Origin: a bacterium
Lineage (GTDB): Bacteria > JAUVQV01 > DATDCY01
Direction: 5' to 3'
Assembly: GCA_036524115.1 (NCBI GenBank)
Contig: DATDCY010000243.1
Coordinates: 1-32,669 of the forward strand
DNA: 32,669 bases
The notes under the pieces are model-generated. The model was not told the origin of the DNA. It saw only the letters and a list, made by a program, of their open reading frames with translations, and ran no database searches. Made by a program: the position numbers and the translations under genes. Positions within the stretch are counted from its first letter, which is position 1, and the number at the start of each line of letters is the position of its first letter. Shown one piece after another: positions 20,691 to 29,422 of the stretch.

Positions 20691-20720
20691 ATTCTACACG
20701 AACCGGGCAACCATCGGCAA
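20691..20720 (-). promoter_or_regulatory. Sigma70-type promoter for php-tpr-iorAB
   Basis: TTGCCG (20720-20715) and TAGAAT (20696-20691) are separated by 18 bases, facing the PHP gene. The predicted start near 20684 gives a leader of about 27 bases containing AAAGGAG. It is back to back with the lipoprotein promoter. Confidence 0.5.
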
Positions 20721-20743
20721 CCGCAGGAATTTTCCGTCGCGAG

Positions 20744-20759
20744 TGTGACGCAGGTCACT
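20744..20759. promoter_or_regulatory. CRP/FNR-family-like palindromic site
   Basis: TGTGA at 20744-20748 and TCACT at 20755-20759 with a 6-base spacer match the CRP consensus TGTGA-N6-TCACA at 9 of 10 positions. The centre (20751.5) lies about 43 bases upstream of the predicted lipoprotein transcription start, close to a class II activator position. It lies about 67 bases upstream of the predicted php start. Confidence 0.5.
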
Positions 20760-20788
20760 TGTGCGCCAGCGCACCCGGTTGCTAGGAT
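20759..20788 (+). promoter_or_regulatory. Candidate promoter of the lipoprotein gene
   Basis: TTGTGC (20759-20764) and TAGGAT (20783-20788), spacer 18. The spacer contains a perfect palindrome GTGCGC-CA-GCGCAC (20761-20774) that would suit a repressor. A 7 bp hairpin CTTCCCC/GGGGAAG (20807-20827) lies in the predicted leader. Confidence 0.4.
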
Positions 20789-20869
20789 GCCCGTCACGCC
20801 ACATTCCTTCCCCCGCCGCAGGGGAAGCGATGCGGGCGGGTCTGTCTCTTGCGGCTGGAGGGCTCTACG

Positions 20870-21220
20870 ATGAAGCGAATCGCTCTGTTCATTCTGGCGG
20901 TGCTGGCGCTCGTTGGCGTGGCGGCGTGCGGCGGCGATCACAACGGCGACCCCGTGGGCGTCTGGAATGCGGGCCTCGCCTATCGGTGCGACGGCAACTA
21001 CCACCGCCTGACTTTCCGTTTCTTCGAGGGTGGCGGCTTCCGCGACTCCACCACGCACACGGGCAGGTGGGCCGTGGACGGCGACGACATCAGGGTCCGG
21101 ATGAGCAACGGCTATGTCCTGGCCGGGACGATCGCCGGCGACAGGACCATGTCGGGGACCTTCACCGGCGGCGACGGCCCCGGCTGCTGGGAGGCGACGA
21201 AGTCGGCCAACCTGCCGTGA
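20870..21220 (+). CDS. Small lipoprotein with lipocalin-like repeats
   Basis: The 116-residue protein has a type II signal peptide (MKRIALFILAVLALVGVAAC) with lipobox VAAC, so C20 would be lipidated. The mature part is beta-rich with repeated short strands and turns (GVWNAGLAYRCDG, HRLTFRFFEGGGF, GRWAVDGDDIRVRMSNGY, GTIAGDRTMSGTFTGGD, GCWEATK), the pattern of small lipocalin-like or copper-resistance-like lipoproteins. Two further cysteines may form a disulfide. Function is unknown. ATG with GGAGGG 7 bases upstream. It is a single-gene unit diverging from php-iorAB under a CRP-like site. Confidence 0.8.
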   Translation: MKRIALFILAVLALVGVAACGGDHNGDPVGVWNAGLAYRCDGNYHRLTFRFFEGGGFRDSTTHTGRWAVDGDDIRVRMSNGYVLAGTIAGDRTMSGTFTGGDGPGCWEATKSANLP

Positions 21221-21299
21221 TCTGACGCGGCCCCTTCGGCGCGTGGTGCGCCCGACGCGCTCGCCAAGGGTTGTGCCTCTGGACGCACTCGAGGTGACG

Positions 21300-21332
21300 A
21301 AAAAATAGGCCCCCGCCGAAGAGCGGCGGGGG
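21300..21332 (-). terminator. Intrinsic terminator of the small RNA / tRNA-Arg transcript
   Basis: A 9 bp GC stem (CCCCCGCCG with CGGCGGGGG) and a 5-base loop CTCTT, followed on the minus strand by CCTATTTTTT. This is the clearest rho-independent terminator in the window. Confidence 0.85.
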
Positions 21333-21452
21333 GTGGGATGGGTGCCGCGTCATGGGGGCGGGACAAAGCCCGCGGTCCGGCTGACGCAACACCCGGGGGC
21401 CGATGGCCTCCGCCGAGGGGGAGACGCCACACCCCGGCTGACCGTCGGTCCT
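21300..21452 (-). ncRNA. Candidate orphan small RNA
   Basis: About 153 nt between a good promoter and an intrinsic terminator, with no open frame worth keeping. Predicted folds from 5' to 3': a short GACCG/CGGTC palindrome; a GC stem CCGGGG with CCCCGG (21437 to 21393) that encloses GTGGC/GCCAT and CTCC/GGAG; a 13 bp stem at 21394-21382 with 21352-21340 (two G-U pairs) enclosing a GCGGG-CTTTGT-CCCGC hairpin at 21373-21358; then the terminator. The sequence GTCAGCCGG occurs twice. I do not recognise 6S, SRP, tmRNA, RNase P or a riboswitch core. It lies downstream of tRNA-Arg on the same strand and convergent with the lipoprotein gene. Confidence 0.5.
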
Positions 21453-21458
21453 ACCTGC

Positions 21459-21486
21459 AATATAGGTTCATCTGGGAAGATGGCAA
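21459..21486 (-). promoter_or_regulatory. Promoter of the candidate small RNA
   Basis: TTGCCA (21486-21481) and TATATT (21464-21459) with a 16-base spacer; each box matches its consensus at 5 of 6 positions. The predicted start is the A near 21452. Confidence 0.55.
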
Positions 21487-21561
21487 GCCCCCCGGGGATG
21501 AGCAATCGGGGCGTGCCGATTGTGGGGATCCATGACTGAGGCACATCTGAACGCCTTTGGT

Positions 21562-21638
21562 TGGTGCCCCCGGCGCGACTCGAACGCGCGGCCTACAGAT
21601 TAGGAATCTGCCGCTCTATCCACCTGAGCTACGGGGGC
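21562..21638 (-). tRNA. tRNA-Arg (anticodon CCU)
   Basis: A complete 77 nt cloverleaf on the minus strand. The acceptor is GCCCCCG with CGGGGGC, the D stem GCTC/GAGC, the anticodon stem GCAGA/TCTGT with loop TTCCTAA (anticodon CCT), and the T arm GCGCG-TTCGAGT-CGCGC. The discriminator is A and the 3' CCA is encoded. It reads the rare arginine codon AGG. Confidence 0.95.
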
Positions 21639-21661
21639 CTGCCGTGACGGCGGCGCGCTAA

Positions 21662-21770
21662 CGGCCTGCGACTGCGTTGCACTCCTCGCGTTCGCTTGCG
21701 GCGTACGCCCAGTACGCCTCAGCGCCCGCTTGTCGTGCGCCTTGTCTCGGCTCGTTATCGCGTCGCCTCC
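21662..21770 (-). repeat. Palindromic intergenic repeat, copy 1
   Basis: The first of two tandem copies (about 109 bp, start-to-start 140 bp) between apt and tRNA-Arg. Read on the minus strand it has a CAAGGCGCACGAC arm, a palindromic core GGCGTAC...GTACGCC (21700-21718 region) and a GAGGAGTGCAACGC arm. The second copy and the element at 29464-29557 share both arms. Confidence 0.8.
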
Positions 21771-21801
21771 ATGCTCCTGTTCGTTCCCGGCGGCGCGGTC
21801 T

Positions 21802-21910
21802 CGGCCTGCGACTGCGTTGCGCTCCTCGCGCCCGCCTGCGACGTACTCCAGTACGTCTCGGCGTTCGCTTCGTCGCGCTCCTTGTCTCGGCTCGAGCCTG
21901 CGTCGCCTCT
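21802..21910 (-). repeat. Palindromic intergenic repeat, copy 2
   Basis: The second tandem copy, differing from copy 1 by scattered substitutions and single-base indels. Its core is a perfect palindrome GACGTACT-CC-AGTACGTC (21840-21857). The minus-strand arms are CAAGGAGCGCGACGA and GAGGAGCGCAACGC. It ends 27 bases before the apt stop codon. Confidence 0.8.
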
Positions 21911-21937
21911 AATCCGGTTCCGGCCTCGCTCCCGCCT

Positions 21938-22453
21938 TTAGTACTGAATCAGCGAGTACGCCGGATGCTTCAGCTTCTCGCGGCCGTTGAGGAAGAGCAG
22001 CTCCACGAGGAAGGCGCACTCGACGATGTCCCCGCCCTGCTGCTCGACGAGCTTGACCGCCGCGTTCACCGTCCCGCCCGTGGCCAGCAGGTCGTCGGCG
22101 ATGACCACGCGCTGCCCGGCGGTGATCGCGTCCTGGTGGATCTCCAGCGCGTCGGTGCCGTACTCCAGCTCGTAGATCGTCTTGTGCGTCTTGTACGGGA
22201 GCTTGCCCGGCTTGCGGATGAGGATGACCCCCGCGCCCAGCCGGTACGCGAGCGCCGCGCCGATCACGAAGCCCCGGGCCTCCACGCCGACGACGCAATC
22301 GACGCGCTTGCCCACGTAGCGCGAGGCGAGCATGTCGACCGCCTTGCCGAAGCCGGCCGGGTCGCGCAGCAGCGGCGTGAGGTCCTTGAAGAGGATGCCG
22401 GGCTTCGGGAAGTCCTGGATGTCCCGCACGAGGCGCTTGAGCTGGTCGACCAC
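21938..22453 (-). CDS. apt: Adenine phosphoribosyltransferase
   Basis: Apt salvages adenine: adenine + PRPP gives AMP + PPi. The 171-residue cytoplasmic protein begins [25 protein letters not shown], a signature of bacterial Apt. It has the substrate-loop [14 protein letters not shown] and the PRPP-binding motif [13 protein letters not shown] (about residues 116-128). Length is usual for the family. The start is a GTG preceded by a purine-rich AGGGGGG. It lies 78 bases downstream of tRNA-Pro(CGG) and may share its promoter. Confidence 0.95.
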
Positions 22454-22531
22454 GTCCGCTGCCCCCCTGCCGACGCCGCCCGCGACGGCGGCCCGTCGCT
22501 GTCCGCTGCGGCCGCGGCCCGCTGTGAAGAG

Positions 22532-22608
22532 TGGTCGGGACGAGAGGATTTGAACCTCCGACTCCCTGCTCCCGAAGCAGGTGCGCTACCAGGCTGCGCT
22601 ACGTCCCG
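22532..22608 (-). tRNA. tRNA-Pro (anticodon CGG)
   Basis: A complete 77 nt cloverleaf on the minus strand: acceptor CGGGACG/CGTCCCG, D stem GCGC/GCGC, anticodon stem CCTGC/GCAGG with loop TTCGGGA (anticodon CGG, reading CCG), T arm GGAGG-TTCAAAT-CCTCT. The CCA end is encoded. Confidence 0.96.
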
Positions 22609-22645
22609 ACATCCTGCCCACAAGTCCCTGGCACGACGGACGCAG

Positions 22646-22674
22646 ATGATGCAGCATCCGGCGGAATATTTCAA
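22646..22674 (-). promoter_or_regulatory. Promoter of tRNA-Pro(CGG)-apt
   Basis: TTGAAA (22674-22669) and CATCAT (22651-22646) with a 17-base spacer, about 35-40 bases upstream of the tRNA 5' end. It lies in the otherwise empty gap between the GGDEF gene and the tRNA. Confidence 0.45.
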
Positions 22675-22709
22675 CTGCCCGCGACACGCGGCGAGCGCGG
22701 GCGGGGCGT

Positions 22710-28049: not shown

Positions 28050-28125
28050 GTGCAGTACCTGTCGTGGAAATCGCCTCCGGACGGGCGCGCGGTGGCGGGC
28101 GCGGGCGCGCGCGGTGGCGGCGCCG

Positions 28126-28154
28126 TTTGCAGCCGCCCGCGGGTGTGCTATGGT
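28126..28154 (+). promoter_or_regulatory. Candidate promoter of the CNB-fold gene
   Basis: TTTGCA (28126-28131) and TATGGT (28149-28154), spacer 17. It would start transcription near 28161, about 22 bases before the ATG at 28184. Confidence 0.45.
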
Positions 28155-28183
28155 TCGCTCCCGGGTGGGGAGGTGACGCGCGA

Positions 28184-29422
28184 ATGCTGTTCCCGGGAAG
28201 CCGGATCTGGTACGAGGGCGCCGTCGCCGACATCGCCACCCTGACTGAGGAAATCAAGAGCTCGGGCTTCTCCGGCCACATCGTCCTCGAGTTCCAGGAC
28301 TCGCTCGACGTCGTCGTCTGCGTGGGCGGCGAGTTCGTGAAGGTGGTGGAGCTCATCGGCGGCCGGTTGCTCTCCGCCAAGAAATACCGCGAGATCTGGG
28401 GCAAGTGCCGCATCAAGCAGGGCCGCATGACGGTGTTCGAGCTGCCGCCCCGCCTGGCGCAGCGCCTGCGCGGCATCCGCGGCCGGCGCGTCCTGTGCAC
28501 GGGCACGGCGGCCGGCGGCTGCGACCCCCTGCGGATCATCGGCGAGCTGAAGGCCGGGGGCTTCTCCGGGATCCTCGACGCGGTCTCCCCGGGCGGCAAG
28601 CTCCTGCTCGACTTCGAATCCGGCGTGATCGCCGCCGCGTACGCAACGAGCTTCGCCGGGCCGGCGCTGGAGGGGTTCGACGCCTTCCGCGACTGGCACG
28701 AGGGGTTCGTGCGCGCCGACGCGGCGACCGTGTTCTCGGTGGCCGGGATCGCGGCCCCCGGCGACGGCCAGCTCTGGGACGAGATCCTGATGGCCGGGAC
28801 CGAGCGCGTGGCCCTGCCGCTGCTCCCCTCGACCGAGCGGCTCGCGCACCGCTACGGCCGGACGGTGCCCGCCGGCGAGGTGCTCTTCGCCGCCGGCGCG
28901 CGGCCGGCGCAGGCGTACTACCTGCTGACCGGCGAGGTCGAGCTGTTCCCGGCCGCGACGGACGGCATCAGCGTCTGCCGCCGCCTCGGGTCGGGGGCGC
29001 TCTTCGGCGTCTCGTGGCTGCAGGACCTCGCGCCGGCCCGCTTCGGCGCGCGCGCCACGGTCGAGAGCCGCCTCCTCGCGTTCGGGCGCGACGCGCTCCC
29101 GACGGTCTTCGCGAACAGCCCCCAGCTCGCGGCGCGCTGCGTCCGCGCCTCCGCCGCCCTGCTGGCCCGCATGCGCAGCCGGCTGGAAGCCTTCCGCGCC
29201 GAGCCGCGCCTGCACGCGATGGAGACGGAGGTGATCGCCACGCTGCGCCGCCCGCACCCGGACAACCCGGACGGGCTCGCCGCGGCGGACCTCTTCGCGG
29301 AGCTGGCGCAGGTGCTGCCGCTGTCGCTGCCGGAGATCGACGCGCTCTTCCGGCGCCTCGTCAGCCTCGGGAGCATCAGCCAGACCGGCGGCAAGATCGC
29401 CCTCACCCTCCGCGAACTCTAG
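28184..29422 (+). CDS. DUF4388-like plus cyclic-nucleotide-binding-fold protein
   Basis: A 412-residue soluble protein. Two similar segments near the N-terminus (TEEIKSSGFSGHIVLEF at about 21-37 and IGELKAGGFSGILDAV at about 119-134) resemble DUF4388/PatA-type domains found in gliding and signalling proteins. Residues about 210-330 form a cNMP-binding fold (VPAGEVLFAAGARPAQAYYLLTGEVEL, then GSGALFGVSWLQ). The phosphate cassette is degenerate: the FGE glutamate is V276, and the partner Arg is shifted (R286 or R290). A C-terminal helical region (343-412) could be a small winged helix. It may be a nucleotide-independent scaffold or bind a different ligand. ATG with GGGGAGG about 10 bases upstream; the longer open frame is rejected. 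Confidence 0.75.
   Translation: MLFPGSRIWYEGAVADIATLTEEIKSSGFSGHIVLEFQDSLDVVVCVGGEFVKVVELIGGRLLSAKKYREIWGKCRIKQGRMTVFELPPRLAQRLRGIRGRRVLCTGTAAGGCDPLRIIGELKAGGFSGILDAVSPGGKLLLDFESGVIAAAYATSFAGPALEGFDAFRDWHEGFVRADAATVFSVAGIAAPGDGQLWDEILMAGTERVALPLLPSTERLAHRYGRTVPAGEVLFAAGARPAQAYYLLTGEVELFPAATDGISVCRRLGSGALFGVSWLQDLAPARFGARATVESRLLAFGRDALPTVFANSPQLAARCVRASAALLARMRSRLEAFRAEPRLHAMETEVIATLRRPHPDNPDGLAAADLFAELAQVLPLSLPEIDALFRRLVSLGSISQTGGKIALTLREL

Follow-up and report, generated by a model that had tools for sequence, protein, structure and literature searches.

A putative stand-alone small RNA gene downstream of tRNA-Arg(CCU) in a GC-rich bacterial genome

Does the DNA that follows the tRNA-Arg(CCU) gene of this uncultured and little-known bacterium, where a promoter-like site faces a terminator-like hairpin, encode an RNA of its own, and if so, how might such an RNA act? 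The window, which is the whole stretch of 32,669 nucleotides that was analysed, is contig C243 of a 3.91-Mb genome assembled in 374 contigs and 95% complete. On its minus strand the candidate RNA is preceded, in order, by genes for EF-G, MerR, tRNA-Pro(GGG), PCMT, a GGDEF response regulator, tRNA-Pro(CGG), apt and tRNA-Arg(CCU), and is followed by a PHP-domain gene, a TPR gene and a TPP/ferredoxin oxidoreductase gene. Between apt and tRNA-Arg, two adjacent copies of a GC-rich extragenic repeat (21648-21909, spacing 140 bp) were observed, a repeat that is matched 38 times here and 4 times in a sister genome of the same order (G001), the one other genome of the phylum that was compared. The elements that define the candidate unit are as follows.

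21562 to 21638, minus strand: tRNA-Arg(CCU), the upstream neighbour of the candidate RNA
21459 to 21486, minus strand: sigma-70-type promoter-like site, TTGCCA-16-TATATT, with 10 of 12 consensus bases
21300 to 21452, minus strand: putative small RNA body of ~150 nt, its 5' end placed ~7 nt past the -10 element; proposed from its fold z score, non-coding character and lack of an Rfam match
21300 to 21332, minus strand: intrinsic terminator read from the sequence, a 9-bp all-GC hairpin followed by CCTATTTTTT

The initial annotation had described a TTGCCA-16-TATATT promoter and a 9-bp terminator hairpin with a T-run, and both are present, at 21486-21459 and 21332-21300, respectively. The two signals were calibrated on 420 kb of contigs from the same genome. 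Promoter sites matching at least 10 of 12 bases occur 22 times in this sample, compared with 0.8 times in shuffled sequence, and three of them lie directly upstream of tRNA genes, 40-43 bp before them; the promoter class is therefore genuine in this organism. Strict intrinsic terminators are mildly enriched (6 against 2.5 expected), and the T-run of the candidate begins 4 nt past the stem (CCTA), which makes it weaker than an ideal terminator. A promoter followed by a terminator within 50-350 nt was found at two places in the 420 kb and at none in 2.47 Mb of shuffled sequence. Since the second place is the tRNA-Ser(CGA) gene (L137:17945-18034), the pattern marks stable-RNA genes in this genome, and scanning for a promoter plus a terminator picks out such genes against its GC-rich background. 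The calibration was run after the finding was already known and is thus supportive rather than an independent test.

The candidate unit follows tRNA-Arg on the minus strand at a distance of 75 nt, and no T-run terminator separates the two. This arrangement brings in the main rival explanation, in which an apt/tRNA-Arg transcript would have the unit as its 3' trailer and terminator, with the trailer either cut off and degraded or kept as a stable fragment and the promoter match incidental or secondary. There is precedent in the E. coli small RNAs produced within rRNA transcripts (PMC8144298, where a tRNA 3' spacer serving as a small RNA sponge is also cited). Like the trailer RNAs of E. coli tRNA and rRNA operons (3'ETS-leuZ and RrA/RrB/RrF), the candidate sits just 3' of a stable-RNA gene, shares its strand and ends in a terminator, but unlike them it has its own promoter-like site. 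That site, with 10 of 12 consensus bases, stands between the tRNA and the RNA body, and ~4% of such sites are expected to be false; moreover, the same tRNA in G001 has no such trailer. A trailer origin is considered unlikely.

The comparison with G001 also bears on the genes beyond the candidate, two of which are needed here.

20870 to 21220, plus strand: lipoprotein-like gene of 116 aa with lipobox LVGVAAC, convergent to the RNA; two paralogues in the genome
19995 to 20669, minus strand: PHP-domain gene (start 20669 or 20657), the next same-strand gene, which directly follows tRNA-Arg in G001

The order tRNA-Pro(GGG), tRNA-Pro(CGG), apt, tRNA-Arg(CCU) and PHP gene is retained in G001, and the two PHP genes are 79% identical over 56 residues. 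The distance from tRNA-Arg to the PHP gene, however, is 59 bp in G001 and ~890 bp here, and the ~890-bp segment, which contains the candidate RNA and the convergent lipoprotein-like gene, is absent from G001. The absence of more than 820 bp could equally mean non-essential drift, and two genomes cannot tell a gain here from a loss in G001.

The PHP gene had been overlooked in the initial annotation, which saw no downstream minus-strand gene. The further statement that the RNA is not a riboswitch for an adjacent gene nevertheless stood up. That the PHP gene comes next on this strand, and directly after tRNA-Arg in G001, might suggest that the RNA is its leader or attenuator. Yet the gene lies ~630 bp beyond the candidate, the oppositely running lipoprotein-like gene comes between them, and a promoter-like site of its own (TTGCCG-18-TAGAAT) is found just upstream of it. 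Because of the intervening gene and this site, a leader role appears unlikely, and as an explanation of the unit it is given next to no weight.

The lipoprotein-like gene and the RNA unit converge, 80 bp apart, and no terminator-like site was found on the plus strand from 20700 to 22700. An mRNA running from the gene into the unit would pair with the RNA over its full length, which would make the RNA an antisense regulator of the lipoprotein-like gene; the location of both in the segment absent from G001 fits such a partnership. Against it, the two paralogues (on C319 and C207; 32-37% identity, E values of 2e-14 and 7e-13) have no promoter-terminator unit nearby, although one of these loci ends soon after the gene, and the lipoprotein mRNA may have Rho-dependent ends. 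Antisense control of this gene is judged very unlikely. The lipoprotein-like family has no relative in G001 and no Pfam match. Upstream of the gene, a CRP/FNR-like palindrome, TGTGACGCAGGTCACT, was seen at 20744-20759, and a protein with a cyclic-nucleotide-binding domain is encoded at 28064-29422 on the plus strand.

All six reading frames across 21300-21486 scored as non-coding when compared with the codon usage of confident neighbours, in line with the earlier view that no credible protein frame is present. The 106-aa open reading frame at 21112-21432 (minus strand) likewise has a negative codon-usage score and no Pfam match. The predicted fold of the 154-nt RNA has a free energy of -84.7 kcal/mol (z about -3.3 against shuffles) and consists of three consecutive hairpins without a stem closing the 5' and 3' ends; upstream of the terminator it comprises the following parts.

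21396 to 21452, minus strand: 5' domain of 57 nt, a predicted irregular GC-rich stem (z -0.73, no better than shuffles)
21339 to 21393, minus strand: central hairpin with a 13-bp helix, GGGUGUUGCGUCA / UGACGCGGCACCC, and an inner 5-bp GCGGG/CCCGC stem (z -4.35, which refers to the 59-nt piece 21338-21396, chosen after the fact)
21333 to 21340, minus strand: accessible C-rich linker, CAUCCCAC, a possible pairing segment (unpaired probability 0.85-0.99)

Besides the terminator, one helix exceeds chance, the 13-bp helix at 21393-21339, which formed identically in all the contexts folded, no matter where the piece began and ended; the fold signal stems from this helix and the terminator. The nested GC stems described earlier are thus borne out for the centre, whereas for the 5' part, at z -0.73, they are unproven. 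The segments of the RNA predicted to be accessible are the U-tail, a loop and the C-rich linker between the central hairpin and the terminator. Within the window, the stretch 21281-21400 ranks first of 204 for folding. Across the genome, 15 of 3483 stretches reach a z score of -4 (about 0.4% fold as well), and folding by itself would therefore not prove a gene. Three other stretches (L160:6841-6960, L138:13201-13320 and L175:10081-10200) fold far better than shuffles, with z scores of -5.4 to -6.1 and no Rfam match; these are repeats or unknown RNAs.

A search against 4227 Rfam families, at the gathering threshold and at E <= 10, returned only chance-level matches for the candidate RNA, with no family at threshold and nothing sensible to E = 10. 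Among these families, the covariance model of the 6C/B11 small RNAs (RF01066) did not match. The genuine 6S RNA of this genome is found at C172:5632-5823 (85 bits) and the SRP RNA (RF00169) at C176:38641-38740 (78 bits); the former is the sole RF00013 match in the genome at E <= 10, the latter the sole match to its model, and the candidate is absent from the matches to both. The earlier failure to place the RNA in a known class, 6S and SRP included, is therefore upheld, and the suggestion made alongside it, a very divergent 6S RNA, finds no support. The candidate does resemble 6S RNA in its length (150-190 nt) and as a stand-alone gene, and two 6S RNAs occur in some bacteria (PMC7726162), so that a divergent second copy could be imagined. 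Its predicted fold, however, has neither the closing stem nor the central bubble of 6S RNA, RF00013 does not match it at E <= 10 and the true 6S gene lies elsewhere, which leaves this possibility barely credible.

Relatives of the candidate were sought at several levels. DNA searches of 60 genomes gave matches confined to the tRNA part, and within the phylum nothing was obtained for the RNA beyond chance matches of ~20-30 nt. A covariance model built from the single sequence and run on 98 genomes, on the genome itself and on ten more recovered, besides itself, weak hits of at most 19 bits; a model of this kind has little power to detect distant relatives. In plasmids and phages, short chance matches alone were seen, and viral contigs had no exact 19-mer match. 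None of 80 apt loci obtained in a scan for that gene carries the candidate RNA, and when the closest of these were scanned for tRNAs, the apt/tRNA-Arg order was not kept. No relative thus emerged from any of these searches. The lack of detected conservation and the GC content of 67.7% would also suit a locus with no functional RNA at all, that is, a GC-rich extragenic palindrome with a terminator or protein-binding site and a chance promoter match, and other stretches of the genome, including copies of the dispersed extragenic repeat, fold as well. The candidate, unlike that repeat, is single copy, and its promoter-terminator combination never arose in shuffles, making this explanation decidedly unlikely.

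With respect to the mode of action, Hfq (PF17209) had no match in this genome or in G001, both incomplete (this genome 95%), in a search in which the controls, including E. coli, did match; nor did CsrA (PF02599) in the same two incomplete genomes. An Hfq-dependent small RNA or a CsrB-type sponge was dropped because these proteins were not found, and RrA/RrB/RrF differ from the candidate on this point, as they bind Hfq and CsrA, neither of which was found in its host. In mycobacteria, which are high in GC and lack Hfq, the B11/6C small RNA uses C-rich loops for chaperone-free pairing with mRNAs (PMC12395582). By analogy with this RNA, base-pairing in trans to G-rich ribosome-binding regions appears the most likely mode. 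The likeness lies in a high-GC bacterium without detected Hfq, in hairpins with C-rich accessible segments and in a 3' terminator hairpin (PMC12395582). In contrast to 6C/B11, the candidate has its C-run in a linker between hairpins and not in hairpin loops, comes from an unrelated phylum, matches no Rfam family and has no known targets. A search against neighbouring gene starts produced nothing that stood out, a weak result given that the program favours long, unrealistic duplexes.

On this basis, we infer a small RNA acting in trans. The sigma-70-type promoter would transcribe an RNA of ~150 nt from near 21452, with approximate ends, and the transcript would stop at the intrinsic terminator near 21300. 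The exposed C-rich linker, held between two stable hairpins, may then base-pair with G-rich, Shine-Dalgarno-like segments of presumed target mRNAs, and pairing would proceed without Hfq.

Taken together, the best explanation, at a probability of roughly 45%, is a stand-alone small RNA gene whose product base-pairs in trans through its C-rich linker without Hfq. It is favoured by a proven promoter class, a promoter-terminator unit absent from shuffles, a central helix with a z score of -4.35, the lack of a coding frame, the separate promoter-like site of the PHP gene, the accessible linker and the failure to find Hfq or CsrA. It is weakened by the lack of a relative, the T-run set 4 nt off the stem, the mild terminator enrichment, a 5' domain unstructured beyond chance, the lack of a neighbouring target, a segment whose absence from G001 may be drift and the post hoc nature of the unit search. 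A self-contained, non-coding, structured unit that lacks an Rfam match and does not serve as the leader of a neighbouring gene is supported. Its transcription is likely, and the existence of a small RNA gene is likely as well, at about two in three; such a gene would be an ordinary kind of orphan. More doubtful is that it founds an undescribed family of small RNAs limited to a poorly sampled phylum, and acts independently of Hfq and CsrA, perhaps as a partner of the lipoprotein-like gene. Any lineage that has received little study can be expected to contain orphan small RNAs, and the finding is in itself unsurprising; its value would be modest and would lie in providing a lineage without detected Hfq or CsrA with a small RNA that can be tested.
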